From assembly GCA_016188625.1 (NCBI GenBank), contig JACPHL010000062.1, forward strand, positions 1 through 9,197: a DNA stretch of 9,197 bases, in the 5' to 3' direction. The notes beneath the pieces are model-generated. The model did not search any database. It had not been told where the DNA came from and worked only from the letters and a program-made list of their open reading frames with translations. Positions 3,757-7,627 of this stretch are shown here, piece by piece. Numbering within the stretch: the first letter of the stretch is position 1; each line of letters opens with the position of its first letter. The DNA is from Candidatus Rokuibacteriota bacterium. Its GTDB lineage: Bacteria > Methylomirabilota > Methylomirabilia > Rokubacteriales > JACPHL01. A program made the position numbers and the translations under genes.

Positions 3757-3822
3757 TGGACTCGACGGGCGGCGTTCGCGGGAATAGGCGACCCGGACCG
3801 GCTGTTTCTCCAATGAGGGACG

Positions 3823-4410
3823 GTGGGCCGCGACACCACCAGCGCTCGGAGCGGGCTCTTGCACGATCGGCAGCAGGCGTTCGAAGACGAGGCGCTGGTC
3901 CACCTGGACTCGCTCTACCATGTGGCGTATCGGCTGGGCAGGAGCCGGTCGGAGGCGGAGGACCTGGTGCAGGAGACCATGCTGAAGGCGTTCCAGAGCT
4001 TCCACCAGTACGACCGCGGGACGAACTGCCGCGCCTGGCTCCTGACCATCCTCCACCACACGTTCCTGAACCGGCTGAAGCGCTCGGCACGGGAGTTCCT
4101 GGAGCCCGACGGCCAGCTCCCGGAGCCGGGCGAGGGGCGCTGGGAGTACTCGTCGGCGATCTATAACCCCGAGGAGGCGTTCTTCCAGAGCTTCATGGAC
4201 CCCGATGTGGAGCGGGCGCTGGAGGCCCTGCCGGCCCCCTTCCGGGAGGTGGTGGTGCTGGCGGACCTGGAGGAGTGCTCCTACAAGGAGATCGCCCAGA
4301 TCGTGGGGTGCCCCACCGGGACGGTGATGTCGCGGCTCTACCGGGGCCGCCAGCTCCTCAAGCAGGCCCTCCTCGAGCGGGCCCGCCAGCGGGGCTACAT
4401 CCGAGGCTGA
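3823..4410 (+). CDS. ECF-family RNA polymerase sigma factor
   Basis: The 195-residue protein has the two-domain layout of group 4 (ECF) sigma factors. Region 2 spans about residues 22-90, with the core-binding helix AEDLVQETMLKAFQ (45-58) and the promoter-melting/-10 recognition segment NCRAWLLTILHHTFLNRLKR (68-87). A variable linker (91-126) follows. Region 4 (127-182) ends in the helix-turn-helix YKEIAQIVGCPTGTVMSRLY (154-173) that reads the -35 element. There is no extra C-terminal domain. The next gene encodes a zinc anti-sigma factor, its expected partner. The start is uncertain: the GTG used here has GAGGGA only 2 nt upstream, while an in-frame TTG at 3859 has GGAG at better spacing and would remove 12 non-conserved residues. 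Cys152 and Cys163 flank the recognition helix, a possible but unproven redox feature. Confidence 0.92.
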   Translation: MGRDTTSARSGLLHDRQQAFEDEALVHLDSLYHVAYRLGRSRSEAEDLVQETMLKAFQSFHQYDRGTNCRAWLLTILHHTFLNRLKRSAREFLEPDGQLPEPGEGRWEYSSAIYNPEEAFFQSFMDPDVERALEALPAPFREVVVLADLEECSYKEIAQIVGCPTGTVMSRLYRGRQLLKQALLERARQRGYIRG

Positions 4411-4482
4411 AGGCCTGTCAGAGTCATGCCGATACTGCTCGCACGCTCTCGATGCTCGGCTCGCGGATGGGTGGTCCGCTCC

Positions 4483-4510
4483 GGGCGCGGGCTTGGCCCG
4501 CGCCCCTTTT
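4483..4510 (+). terminator. Terminator-like hairpin between sigma and anti-sigma genes
   Basis: GGGCGCGGGC (4483-4492) pairs perfectly with GCCCGCGCCC (4496-4505) around a 3-nt TTG loop and is followed by CTTTT. This is the best intrinsic-terminator candidate in the window, although four T residues is short. It sits inside the presumed operon, 72 bp after the sigma stop, so it could reduce transcription of the genes downstream. Confidence 0.5.
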
Positions 4511-4520
4511 GGGGGAGGTT

Positions 4521-4547
4521 CGGAAGGGGGGCGTCAGCCCCCCTCCG
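4521..4547 (+). promoter_or_regulatory. Second hairpin just upstream of the anti-sigma ribosome site
   Basis: The arm at 4521-4532 pairs with 4537-4547 over 11 bp with one bulged A and a GTCA loop. It ends directly beside the GAGG ribosome-binding sequence (4547-4550) of the anti-sigma gene; its last base is the first G of that site. It may modulate translation of the anti-sigma factor or protect the 5' end of a processed mRNA. This is inference from position and pairing. Confidence 0.4.
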
Positions 4548-4555
4548 AGGTTAAA

Positions 4556-5368
4556 ATGGCGATGACCTGTCAGGAAGTCCGCGCCTACCTCGAGGCCTAC
4601 CTCGACCGGGAGCTCCCGATCAGGGAGACCCTGGAGGTGGACGCCCATCTGACCTTCTGCATGCAGTGCCAGTGGATCCAGGCCAAGGAGCGCGAGTTCC
4701 GCGCCCTGCTCCGCACCCGTCTCCGCCGGGAGGCCGCGCCCGAGACCCTGGCGGCCCGGATCCGGCATGGGATCCGGGGGCTCGAGCGGCGGAGCCGCTG
4801 GCAGTCGATCCGGCGGGGGCTCCGCTGGGCCCCGCTCCCCCTGGCTCTGGCCGCCGGCCTCCTCCTGGCGGTGCACCTCGCCGATCGCCGAGAGCCGCCG
4901 AAGCCCGATCCGGCCCGGGCCCTGGCCGCCGACCTGGTGCGGAAGCACGTGACCTACTCCCAGGTCGAGGAGCCGGCCGAGGTCGTCTCCTCGGACCGGC
5001 TCCAGCTCGCGGGCTGGTTCCGGGACCGCGTCCGCTTCGACGTCCCCGTCCCGGATTTCTCCCCGTCCGGCATCCGGCTCCTCGGCGGGCGCCTCTCCGA
5101 CCTGGGGGACCGACCGGTGGCCTACCTCTTCTACGCCAAGGGCCGGCAGCTCCTCTCCCTCTACGCCTTCCCCCGGCGGGAGCTCGACCTCCCCGAGGGA
5201 GGGTGGACCGAGGTCAACGGCGAGCGCTACTTCCTGACCCAGTCCCAGGGCCACGCGGTGGTCCTCTGGGGCCGGGGGGAGACCCTCTTCGCCCTCGTCT
5301 CGCTCCTCCCCCAGGAGGAGCTCCTGGACTGCGCCCTGACCCTCTCGCGCCTCCTCCCCCGGACCTGA
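4556..5368 (+). CDS. Membrane-anchored zinc (ZAS) anti-sigma factor
   Basis: This 270-residue protein begins with a zf-HC2-type anti-sigma domain: Cys5, then H-x3-C-x2-C at His31, Cys35 and Cys38, the ligand set of zinc-binding anti-sigma (ZAS) factors. It would hold the ECF sigma factor encoded just upstream at the inner face of the membrane. One hydrophobic segment (about 92-107, WAPLPLALAAGLLLAV) follows a basic stretch, giving cytoplasmic-N, outside-C topology. The remaining ~160 residues form an extracytoplasmic domain, with PSGIRLLGGRLSDLGDRP and AYLFYAKGRQLLSLYAFP, of a kind seen in other transmembrane anti-sigma regulators. The ATG has GAGG 5 nt upstream; the open frame extends 21 codons further but through the hairpins, so it is excluded. 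The TlpA gene starts 9 nt after the stop. The signal sensed is unknown; Cys/His zinc sites in some family members respond to thiol oxidation. Confidence 0.88.
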   Translation: MAMTCQEVRAYLEAYLDRELPIRETLEVDAHLTFCMQCQWIQAKEREFRALLRTRLRREAAPETLAARIRHGIRGLERRSRWQSIRRGLRWAPLPLALAAGLLLAVHLADRREPPKPDPARALAADLVRKHVTYSQVEEPAEVVSSDRLQLAGWFRDRVRFDVPVPDFSPSGIRLLGGRLSDLGDRPVAYLFYAKGRQLLSLYAFPRRELDLPEGGWTEVNGERYFLTQSQGHAVVLWGRGETLFALVSLLPQEELLDCALTLSRLLPRT

Positions 5369-5377
5369 TCGCGCCCC

Positions 5378-5953
5378 TTGCGTCTCCTCCCGGCACGGCT
5401 CCTCGTCCTGACCCTGGCCCTCGGGGCCGTCGTCGCGCTCTTCGGCGCGGCGAGGAGCGCGAAGGAGGCCAGGGACAAGCCCGAGGCCCTCTACGAGGCC
5501 CTCCGCCTCATCCGGCCGGAGAAGCCGCTCACGGCCAAGGCGTTCACCCTGCCGGCGCCCGGCGGGGGGACGGTGCGCCTCGCGGACTTCCAGGGGCAGG
5601 TGATCTTCCTGAACTTCTGGGCGACCTGGTGCCCGCCGTGCAAGGAGGAGATGCCGGCGATGGAGCGCCTCTACCGGAAGCTCAAGGCGAAGGGGTTCGT
5701 CGTCCTGGCCGTCTCCATCGACACCGACGGCGAGGCCGCGGTCGTCGCCTTCCTCCGGGAGCACGGTCTCACCTATCCGGTCGCCCTGGACCCCACGATG
5801 GAGGTCGCCCGGCTCTACACGGTGCGGGCGCTCCCCTCCACCTACCTCATCGATCGGAAGGGCCGGATCGCGGCCATGGCGCTCGGGGCGCGGGAGTGGG
5901 ACGGCCCGGAGGCCGTGGCCCTCATGGAGGCCCTCCTGGCCCAGCCCTCTTGA
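5378..5953 (+). CDS. TlpA/ResA-family membrane-tethered thiol-disulfide oxidoreductase
   Basis: The 191-residue protein has an N-terminal signal anchor (about 5-24, PARLLVLTLALGAVVALFGA) followed by an AhpC-TSA/Redoxin-type thioredoxin fold. The active site is WCPPC (84-88) in NFWATWCPPCKEEMP, with the cis-proline loop ALPSTY (151-156) and the insertion LREHGLTYPVALDP (126-139) typical of TlpA/ResA. It would reduce disulfides outside the cytoplasmic membrane, for example in apocytochrome c or other envelope proteins. No lipobox cysteine is seen, so it is probably an uncleaved anchor. The start is a TTG, 9 nt after the anti-sigma stop and in the same frame, without a clear ribosome site, which suggests translational coupling. 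CcdA, the usual electron donor to TlpA/ResA proteins, follows 31 bp later. The specific client is not readable. Confidence 0.9.
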   Translation: MRLLPARLLVLTLALGAVVALFGAARSAKEARDKPEALYEALRLIRPEKPLTAKAFTLPAPGGGTVRLADFQGQVIFLNFWATWCPPCKEEMPAMERLYRKLKAKGFVVLAVSIDTDGEAAVVAFLREHGLTYPVALDPTMEVARLYTVRALPSTYLIDRKGRIAAMALGAREWDGPEAVALMEALLAQPS

Positions 5954-5984
5954 TTTTCCGCGTCTGGTAAGCTATAGAGGACCG

Positions 5985-6719
5985 ATGGCGTTCGGCGATC
6001 TCTCCCTCCTGGTGGCCTTCTCGGCCGGGCTCTTCTCCTTCCTCTCCCCGTGCGTCCTGCCGCTGTTCCCCTCGTACCTCTCCTTCATCACCGGCATGTC
6101 CGTGGAGGAGCTCCAGGAACCGGTCCGGGGCCGCCGCCAGATCGCCCTCCACTCCCTGGCCTTCATCGTCGGGTTCTCGGCGGTCTTCGTGGCCATGGGG
6201 GCCTCCTTCAGCGTCCTCGGCCAGCTCCTCTTCGGCTACCGGGAGGTGGTCCGCTACGTCGGGGGCGCGCTGATCATCGCCTTCGGCCTCTACATCGCCG
6301 GGGTCCTGCCCCTTCGCTGGCTGGGTCGCTACCGGCAGGTCCAGCTTCGGGCCAAGCCCGCCGGCTACCTCGGGACCTGGCTGGTGGGGGTGACCTTCGC
6401 CATCGGGTGGACCCCCTGCGTGGGGCCCATCCTGGGCTCGATCCTCACCCTGGCCGGCACCACCGAGACGGTTCAGACCGGGGTCGTGATGCTCACCGCC
6501 TACTCGGCGGGCCTGGCCCTCCCCTTCTTCCTCGGCTCGATGGCCCTGGGCTCCTTCCTCACCGCCTTCCGGCGCTTCCGCCCCTTCATCCCCGTCGTCG
6601 AGCGGGTGGCGGGGGCGCTCCTGATCGCGGTGGGGCTCCTGGTCGTCACCAACTACTTCACCGTCCTCAACGCCTACGCCATCAGCCTGACCCCGGAGTG
6701 GCTCCTCAAGCGCCTGTAG
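5985..6719 (+). CDS. ccdA: CcdA cytochrome c biogenesis / DsbD-like transmembrane electron carrier
   Basis: The 244-residue integral membrane protein has about six hydrophobic segments, as in CcdA, the minimal form of the DsbD transmembrane domain. The redox cysteine pair is present: Cys23 in LSPCVLPLFPS and Cys145 in GWTPCVGPILG, both within the two conserved proline-containing helices. It takes electrons from cytoplasmic thioredoxin and passes them to extracytoplasmic thioredoxin-like proteins, most obviously the TlpA-family protein encoded just upstream. The ATG is preceded by AGAGGA 3 nt away. The length is typical. The 3' end meets or overlaps the homoserine kinase gene, implying co-transcription. 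No ccmF/ccsB-type cytochrome assembly gene lies in the window, so a role in cytochrome c maturation specifically is inference. Confidence 0.93.
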   Translation: MAFGDLSLLVAFSAGLFSFLSPCVLPLFPSYLSFITGMSVEELQEPVRGRRQIALHSLAFIVGFSAVFVAMGASFSVLGQLLFGYREVVRYVGGALIIAFGLYIAGVLPLRWLGRYRQVQLRAKPAGYLGTWLVGVTFAIGWTPCVGPILGSILTLAGTTETVQTGVVMLTAYSAGLALPFFLGSMALGSFLTAFRRFRPFIPVVERVAGALLIAVGLLVVTNYFTVLNAYAISLTPEWLLKRL

Positions 6720-7627
6720 GGACGCGCCGGGTCCGCGTGCGGGTCCCGGCCACGGCCGCCAACCTCGGTCCCGGCTTCGACGCCCTCGGCCTGGCCCTGA
6801 CCCTCTACAACGAGGTCGAGCTGGAGGAGGCCGAGGGGATCGAGGTGGAGATCGGGGGCGAGGGGGCGGCGACCCTGCCCCGCGGCGAGGAGAACCTGGT
6901 CGTCCAGGGGGCCCGGGCGGTCTACCGCTCCACCGGGCGTCCCTTCCGCGGGCTCCGGGTCCGGCAGACCAACCGGATCCCGCCCGGCCGCGGCCTCGGC
7001 GGGAGCGCCTCGGCGTGGCTCGGCGGGATGCTGGGGGCCAACGCCCTGCTGGGCGATCGGCTCTCCCGCGAGGCGGTCCTGGACCTCGCGATCCAGCACG
7101 AGGGGCACCCCGACAACCTGGCCGCCGCGCTCCACGGGGGGCTGATCGTGGTGTGCTGGGAGCCGGAGGCGCGCCTGGTGGCGAAGCTCCCGGTCCCCGA
7201 CGGGATCGGGCTCGTCCTCCTGGTCCCCGACCGCGAGGCCTCCACCCGCGAGGCCCGCGCGATCCTCCCCGAGGTCGTCCCCCGCCAGGACGCCGTCTTC
7301 AACGTGGGACGGGCCTGCCTGCTCCTGGCGGCCCTCTGGCAGGAGCGCTGGGATCTCCTCGCCCCCGCCATGGCCGACCGCCTTCACCAGCCCTACCGTC
7401 GGGGCCTGTTCCCGTGGATCGACGGGGTCTTCGCGGCCGCCCGCCGGTCGGGGGCTCTCGGCTGGGCCCTGAGCGGGGCCGGGCCCTCGGTCCTCACCGT
7501 GGTGCGCGGGGCCCCGGAGCCCCTGGCGCGGGCGCTCGAGGCGGCCCTGGCGGCGGAGGGGCTCAAGGGGCAGAGCCTCGTCCTCGGGGTGGACCGCGAG
7601 GGGGCCCGGGTGGAAGAAATGAGTTGA
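6698..7627 (+). CDS. thrB: Homoserine kinase (GHMP kinase family)
   Basis: This GHMP kinase phosphorylates homoserine with ATP to O-phosphohomoserine, the penultimate step of threonine synthesis, in the cytoplasm. The three family motifs are in order: VRVPATAANLGPGFDALG (14-31), the phosphate-binding loop PPGRGLGGSASA (95-106) and the C-terminal SGAGPSVLTV (259-268). EGHPDN (135-140) is also characteristic of ThrB. The phosphate loop has Gly102 where GLGSS is usual. The start is uncertain. GTG at 6698 keeps the whole first beta-strand and gives 309 residues, but overlaps ccdA by 22 nt. GTG at 6737 avoids the overlap but leaves only MRV before the first motif. Neither has a good ribosome site, which fits coupling to ccdA translation. 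No other threonine-pathway gene is in the window. The stop codon lies inside the -35 box of the next promoter. Confidence 0.9.
   Translation: MAPQAPVGTRRVRVRVPATAANLGPGFDALGLALTLYNEVELEEAEGIEVEIGGEGAATLPRGEENLVVQGARAVYRSTGRPFRGLRVRQTNRIPPGRGLGGSASAWLGGMLGANALLGDRLSREAVLDLAIQHEGHPDNLAAALHGGLIVVCWEPEARLVAKLPVPDGIGLVLLVPDREASTREARAILPEVVPRQDAVFNVGRACLLLAALWQERWDLLAPAMADRLHQPYRRGLFPWIDGVFAAARRSGALGWALSGAGPSVLTVVRGAPEPLARALEAALAAEGLKGQSLVLGVDREGARVEEMS

Follow-up and report, generated by a model that had tools for sequence, protein, structure and literature searches.

The window analyzed here is a 9,197-nucleotide stretch (bases 1–9197 of contig C197) from a metagenome-assembled genome (G000; 84% complete, 2.6 Mb) of Rokubacteria, little-known bacteria from soil and groundwater. 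It encodes an extracytoplasmic function (ECF) sigma factor and a putative transmembrane zinc anti-sigma factor, followed by genes for a predicted TlpA/ResA-type oxidoreductase and a CcdA-type electron carrier. The start signal of the sigma gene recurs at genes for exported cysteine-repeat proteins, here called NPCAAK proteins, and this arrangement suggests a circuit for thiol or metal protection that has not been described before. We hold with moderate confidence that a regulon for envelope thiol protection is governed by the autoregulated sigma factor together with its membrane zinc anti-sigma factor. The locus comprises the following features:

3780..3806, + strand: predicted autoregulatory promoter GGGAATA-N17-GTT (SigH/SigR type), 3' end 16 nt before the sigma start; motif at 7/7 intact orthologous sigma genes
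3823..4410, + strand: ECF sigma factor, 195 aa, GTG start (Pfam Sigma70_r2 3e-18, Sigma70_r4_2 5e-16, both above cut-off)
4411..4555, no strand assigned: gap with a dispersed hairpin-rich repeat (~138 bp, roughly 4413–4550), from genome copies and RNA folding
4556..5368, + strand: putative transmembrane zinc anti-sigma factor, 270 aa (C5, H31, C35, C38; weak profile matches)
~4835..4882, + strand: anti-sigma factor, sole transmembrane segment (translated hydrophobic stretch LPLALAAGLLLAVHLA)
4883..5365, + strand: outer domain of the anti-sigma factor, ~160 residues, predicted RseB C-terminal-like fold (AlphaFold2 and structure comparison)
5378..5953, + strand: predicted TlpA/ResA-type exported thiol-disulfide oxidoreductase (TTG start, NFWATWCPPC; AhpC-TSA PF00578 2.5e-33)
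5985..6719, + strand: CcdA-type membrane electron carrier (DsbD_TM, PF02683 4.8e-18); relatives in 56/59 genomes
6737..7627, + strand: thrB, homoserine kinase (TIGR00191 250 bits, above cut-off), last of the three co-directional genes in the core block tlpA-ccdA-thrB

Conservation of Gene Order

A sequence-only reading of this DNA had described a sigma factor, an anti-sigma factor with Cys5, His31, Cys35 and Cys38, a WCPPC thioredoxin and CcdA as consecutive genes. Coordinates, residues and domains confirm this arrangement; all genes are co-directional, with gaps of 9 bp between anti-sigma and TlpA and 31 bp between TlpA and CcdA. Relatives were searched over 60 genomes of the order with a profile built from five anti-sigma factors, which was required because the window anti-sigma factor as lone query retrieved few relatives. 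The matches form three tiers: tier A (E < 1e-130) comprises eight orthologous pairs in seven genomes, tier B (E ~1e-44 to 1e-67) comprises 14 pairs, and 39 loci were examined from tier C. Those anti-sigma relatives that carry names all belong to Candidatus Rokubacteria.

The tlpA and ccdA genes, mostly with thrB, directly follow the pair at seven of the eight tier A loci. This four-gene order recurs in seven genomes and so is not attributable to chance. At the eighth (G037:C26, the second orthologue in that genome), the pair is directly followed by the gene for an exported DUF5818-like protein with a cysteine-repeat tail. None of the 53 distant pairs (14 tier B and 39 tier C) has tlpA-ccdA behind it, about five of the tier B and C loci ending at a contig edge directly behind the pair. 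The comparison of gene order that the sequence-only reading proposed therefore upholds the linkage for orthologues but not for homologues at large.

Assignment of the TlpA protein follows from its AhpC-TSA fold, WCPPC motif and hydrophobic N terminus; against the ResA model NF002854 it scores 122 bits, with a cut-off of 170. CcdA has a DsbD_TM domain plus two conserved cysteines, in SPCVLP and TPCVGP. The DsbD_2 model PF13386, tried as the CcdA family, missed the window protein and matched another contig, and PF02683 is the right family.

Most of the 30 best ccdA loci carry the tlpA-ccdA-thrB block without a sigma pair, and thrB follows ccdA in most. A conserved TATACT-type -10 element lies upstream of tlpA in most of the pair-less loci examined. 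A sigma-type promoter for tlpA in pair-less genomes was considered and rejected, as the apparent GGAAT...GTT matches overlap or neighbor this -10 element. Because tlpA-ccdA-thrB is elsewhere a core block with its own promoter, the tier A lineage apparently captured it by placing the pair in front, and this insertion appears to be the simplest reading of the loci. The thrB gene is probably functionally unrelated to the circuit. At one locus (L255; G028:C22), tlpA-ccdA-thrB lacks the pair yet neighbors the dehydrogenase gene found next to the pair in several tier A genomes, a possible secondary loss or pre-insertion state.

A SigH/SigR-Type Promoter Motif Precedes the Sigma Genes

GGGAATA-N17-GTT is found upstream of the sigma gene at each of the seven tier A loci whose upstream DNA is intact. 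When aligned on the motif, each of six relatives is identical to G000 at 10/10 key bases, and the 55 upstream bases are 25–31% identical. The motif equals the SigH consensus of Corynebacterium glutamicum, as at trxB1 (GGAATA-N17-GTT; PMC10012870). Several tier C sigma genes instead have upstream sites resembling the SigE consensus, GGAAC-N17-18-cGTT (PMC10012870). Sites of the SigR/SigH type (GGAAT-N18-19-GTT) precede both the sigma factor's own gene and its putative targets, and recognition by the sigma factor itself is predicted. A promoter and terminator scan of the window called zero sigma70 promoters.

The strict form of the motif has 25 sites on both strands of the seven tier A genomes (versus one for a reversed control) and 102 sites in 59 genomes (versus 9 for the reversed pattern). 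Among these 102, 45 are no more than 12 kb from a tier A/B pair or an NPCAAK gene, 14 are upstream of tier A/B sigma genes, and 13 are up to 800 nt upstream of NPCAAK genes, where ~0.01 would be expected. The looser GGAATA-N17/18-GTT has three sites in the 2.6 Mb of G000: the window promoter, the sole NPCAAK gene and a position inside an unrelated open reading frame, the last probably due to chance.

With gene order kept at 7/8 loci, zinc ligands in 8/8 orthologues and a SigH/SigR-type promoter at 7/7 sigma genes, an autoregulated circuit reaching tlpA-ccdA is likely on comparative grounds. A second conserved element, ATGATATGCTGGC, lies ~13 bp upstream of the SigH-type motif at tier A sigma genes (L057, L059, L061, L062, L063) and is possibly a housekeeping -10; only CTACAACTGG is seen at this position in the window.

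The Motif Recurs at Genes for Exported NPCAAK Proteins

NPCAAK genes were located with a DNA pattern for NPCAxKNPC, which found genes in 23 of 59 genomes and zero control matches. The repeats either make up short exported proteins or are appended as tails to domains of four kinds: DUF5818-like, DUF5666-like, cytochrome c-like and cytochrome P460. Attachment to the last three of these (L182, L191, L192, L190) indicates that the repeat behaves as a mobile tail module. No family model clearly matched the repeat proteins, and a literature search for the string NPCAAK found nothing. Two genomes from outside the order but within its class (L247, G088:C46; L246, G077:C221) also contain NPCAAK-coding repeats, so the repeat is not confined to the order.

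In most tier B genomes, at most a few kb separate the NPCAAK genes from the pair. Motif targets other than sigma genes in tier A genomes include, in five, an exported DUF5818-like protein with an NPCAAK/QPCAAK tail and, in two, short exported NPCAAK-repeat proteins. The only NPCAAK gene found in G000 (L178:4051-4404; G000:C96:8050-8403) encodes an exported protein of 118 aa with 14 NPC/QPC repeats and 15 cysteines, and a sigma-type promoter lies 71 nt upstream. The exported cysteine-repeat proteins, which form the strongest tie to thiol chemistry, thus lie outside the window.

Occurrence of these genes tracks that of the pair, although shared ancestry inflates each of the following p values. 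NPCAAK genes are present in 16 of 20 genomes with a tier A/B pair versus 7 of 39 others (p = 5e-6). The exported DUF5818-like protein, usually NPCAAK-ended, is found in 12 genomes, all with a tier A/B pair (Fisher p = 1e-7), or 10/10 when counted per genus (p = 1e-4).

A Bufferin Neighborhood and the Possibility of a Metal Signal

One tier B pair (L075; G016:C122) is divergent to a complete bufferin operon comprising a BufA1-like precursor, an MNIO (PF05114, 1e-102), a DUF2063-like and a DoxX-like protein, and the promoter motif precedes both divergent sides. The BufA1-like, DUF2063-like and DoxX-like names are presumptive, being read from the sequence. This layout is that of gigPABT with rpoQ-rsqA in Cupriavidus metallidurans, in which copper induces gig (PMC10304878). 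It gives some weight to a possible, if doubtful, alternative in which copper or another soft metal is the true signal, the NPCAAK proteins are bufferin-like metal sponges, and TlpA-CcdA is accessory only. The NPCAAK proteins, predicted to be exported and rich in regularly spaced cysteines, would suit such a role. However, a full-length MNIO match (PF05114) was found only in G016 among the 24 NPCAAK or tier A/B genomes searched, which fails to support modification of, or metal binding by, NPCAAK proteins, and the occurrence of some NPCAAK repeats as tails of cytochrome c, cytochrome P460 or DUF5666 domains also fits anchoring or electron-transfer roles.

We also considered the NPCAAK proteins as MNIO-modified bufferins and rejected this, given the single MNIO genome and the absence of any DUF2282 model match among the NPCAAK proteins scanned; because the other NPCAAK genomes searched had no full-length MNIO match, modification of these proteins is not indicated. 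Diverged, partial MNIO-family proteins (PF05114, 90–97 bits) occur in two of the 24 genomes (L244, G000:C132; L245, G025:C249), on contigs other than the NPCAAK ones. Each lies beside an ATP-grasp-like gene, with which it possibly forms a peptide-modification cluster.

The Zinc Site and Outer Domain of the Anti-Sigma Factor

The sigma factor is a group 4 (ECF) protein by its composition of regions 2 and 4 only, its length of 195 aa and its position beside an anti-sigma gene. It scores 88 bits against TIGR02937 (cut-off 42.9). Its top NCBIfam match is the SigH_actino model TIGR02947, at 156.8 bits under a cut-off of 251.55, so it does not classify as a SigR/SigH orthologue.

The anti-sigma gene runs from an ATG at 4556 to a stop at 5368, and the positions of Cys5, His31, Cys35 and Cys38 are exact with this start; the start may instead be the ATG at 4562, which is equivalent to the start in relatives. 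The zinc-binding anti-sigma (ZAS) pattern C/H-x25-HxxxCxxC is present in the N-terminal domain of 8/8 orthologues and 49/49 family members, and zinc binding is predicted. Loss of the zinc ligands in close relatives, which the sequence-only reading named as evidence that would tell against it, is thus not seen. Profile matches of the first 77 residues to the PDB are weak, the best being RsrA (E 0.037), then RsiW (E 0.66).

These matches raise the unlikely alternative of an RsrA-like switch, in which the cytoplasmic Cys-His-Cys-Cys (CHCC) site is oxidized to a disulfide, zinc leaves, and the sigma factor is freed directly, the outer domain being secondary. Consistent with this, the promoter belongs to the class used by the disulfide-stress sigma factors SigR and SigH, and all four ligands are kept in the eight orthologues, including the N-terminal cysteine that RsrA needs for redox sensing: Cys5 is the equivalent of RsrA Cys11, from which the trigger disulfide is formed (PMC4960319). 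However, the ligands are just as invariant across all tiers (49/49 members), including pairs with another promoter type and no redox genes and 41 distant pairs without tlpA-ccdA. The CHCC motif therefore marks the family rather than this redox setting, and we reject it as a diagnostic of redox release. The residues tied to RsrA sensitivity, E39, E40, L45 and E46, are T33, F34, Q39 and W40 in the window protein (compared with PMC4960319 and PMC5358783). RsiW, which is likewise a membrane-bound CHCC factor, is redox insensitive and stays on its sigma factor when oxidized (PMC5358783), and a family survey argues that zinc sites of membrane anti-sigma factors may be structural (PMC7406223). Such a switch would also leave a conserved 160-residue outer domain idle.

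Since the full-length anti-sigma model was poor (AlphaFold predicted local distance difference test score, pLDDT, of 60), the outer domain was predicted alone, with a pLDDT of 78.5. It matches RseB/MucB best, in their C-terminal domain, with Z 9.2 and an rmsd of 2.8 over 95 residues (Foldseek E 2.9e-3, prob 1.00). RseB/MucB fill the top 6/6 rows at Z 8.8–9.2, and most other folds score 6–7, but 1vr8 reaches 8.4. The predicted domain thus resembles RseB/MucB in fold only, with Z moderately above that of other folds; no RseB/MucB Pfam match was found in the seven members scanned, so membership of that sequence family is not indicated. The same domain occurs in distant pairs without tlpA-ccdA. 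The suggestion of the sequence-only reading that it contacts TlpA is therefore unsupported as a general partnership, as is a docking role specific to TlpA.

The fold brings into view a second alternative, which we also judge improbable: an RsiW/RseA-type envelope-stress pair with proteolytic release, in which tlpA-ccdA are simply core genes that lie downstream and the signal is something other than thiol chemistry. The RseB relative MucB protects its anti-sigma factor MucA from AlgW (PMC7400510), and an HtrA-like protease gene, recognized by eye, lies near one tier B pair (G058). In most genomes the core block tlpA-ccdA-thrB is not accompanied by the pair, which points the same way. But the same promoter class is found repeatedly at exported cysteine-repeat genes and at the bufferin operon, which implicates thiol or metal chemistry, and TlpA-like matches lie near the pair in three tier B loci versus 0/39 tier C loci.

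Considered together, the family-wide CHCC site, the absent RsrA residues, the insensitivity of RsiW and the RseB-like outer domain lead us to favor envelope sensing with proteolytic release, with the cytoplasmic redox switch a live rival. The feedback circuit of the sequence-only reading, in which thiol stress frees the sigma factor to raise reducing capacity, is accordingly retained as an autoregulated loop reaching tlpA-ccdA (order 7/8, promoter 7/7), but its proposed release by thiol oxidation at the zinc motif is not supported.

Evidence Weighing against the Proposed Envelope Thiol-Protection Regulon

Several points count against the regulon that we propose. The motif was chosen by eye before testing in other genomes and, because it was first picked in G000, is not independent evidence there, as it is elsewhere. 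The promoter spacer of the G000 NPCAAK gene is 18 nt, not 17 nt, and G000 has no DUF5818-like protein. Several NPCAAK genes (G030, G044:C112, G039:C423, G025:C32) have no motif, and seven genomes have NPCAAK genes with no tier A/B pair detected. That the NPCAAK proteins bind metal, or are substrates of TlpA, is something that we infer. Finally, a repeat inside the pair could, in this genome, uncouple the operon or bring its transcription to an end.

This dispersed repeat, to which the sequence-only reading made no reference, fills the 145 bp between the sigma and anti-sigma genes of the window. G000 has at least 41 copies at 79–95% identity (40 of 244 first-look candidates having been scored), and the RNA fold has z = -3.6; an Rfam scan of the window gave zero matches. 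The relatives' loci that were compared show weak partial similarity to it at most, and their sigma and anti-sigma genes overlap by 1–4 nt without the repeat, so it probably broke a translationally coupled pair. It holds strong hairpins, one directly before CTTTT, which makes partial termination possible, although a terminator scan of the window did not call these hairpins as terminators. That the neighborhood is due to chance, the pair and tlpA-ccdA being adjacent but transcribed and used separately, above all in this genome with its repeat inside the pair, as the repeat's hairpins and the distant pairs without tlpA-ccdA could imply, is very unlikely, since the order persists through ~50% protein divergence, five genera and two families, the co-directional genes are 9 and 31 bp apart, and conservation footprints the upstream promoter.

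Discussion

The regulon that we propose would work as follows. Sequence evidence supports a SigH/SigR-type promoter, GGAATA-N17/18-GTT, common to the sigma gene and exported NPCAAK genes, and its reach to tlpA and ccdA by way of the sigma operon. The RseB-like outer domain may sense envelope stress, probably thiol-oxidizing or from a soft, copper-like metal, whereupon the anti-sigma factor would be inactivated, most likely via regulated proteolysis. The freed sigma factor would then make exported cysteine-repeat proteins that bind metal or buffer oxidants, together with CcdA-TlpA, which would pass cytoplasmic electrons outward to keep exported thiols reduced.

Parts of this circuit have counterparts in known systems. 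SigR/RsrA of Streptomyces and SigH/RshA of Corynebacterium and Mycobacterium likewise pair an ECF sigma factor with a zinc-type anti-sigma factor, use a near-identical promoter (GGAAT-N18-19-GTT) and include thioredoxin genes among their targets (PMC10012870). In contrast, the window anti-sigma factor is membrane bound with a sizeable outer domain and does not have the flanking residues to which the redox sensitivity of RsrA is linked, the predicted targets are exported thiol proteins, and the sigma factor falls below the SigH_actino cut-off. SigW/RsiW of Bacillus likewise has a CHCC-bearing transmembrane anti-sigma factor, and the match covers the first 77 residues, but RsiW is redox insensitive and proteolytically released; we know of no link from SigW/RsiW to TlpA-CcdA or NPCAAK proteins. 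RpoE-RseA-RseB and AlgU-MucA-MucB share the fold predicted for the outer domain (Z 9.2). In those systems, however, RseB is a protein in its own right, RseA carries no zinc site, and both the regulon and the promoter are different.

ECF-regulated bufferin operons (gigPABT with rpoQ-rsqA) also place exported cysteine peptides next to an ECF sigma factor and a membrane anti-sigma factor, but NPCAAK proteins are not DUF2282 bufferins and mostly lack an MNIO enzyme in the genomes checked. The CcdA-ResA/TlpA thiol-reducing pathway similarly has its two components in one operon; here, in one lineage, a dedicated ECF pair stands in front of it and probably drives it. Tentatively, NPCAAK proteins might be a new class of exported multi-cysteine thiol/metal buffers that do without MNIO, are reduced by CcdA-TlpA and are switched by an ECF sigma factor whose anti-sigma factor is RsrA-like inside and RseB-like outside. 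They would then be part of a self-contained circuit for envelope thiol homeostasis in Rokubacteria, with a function parallel to that of bufferins.

This analysis links an ECF/ZAS pair from an uncultivated phylum to a specific predicted regulon, in which a stress sigma factor appears to have captured a core thiol-reducing operon, and it reveals a large family of exported NPCAAK cysteine-repeat proteins. Reporters in laboratory strains offer a simple way of testing the predicted promoter and targets. If NPCAAK proteins do bind metal or buffer thiols, they would constitute a functional parallel to bufferins made without a modifying enzyme.

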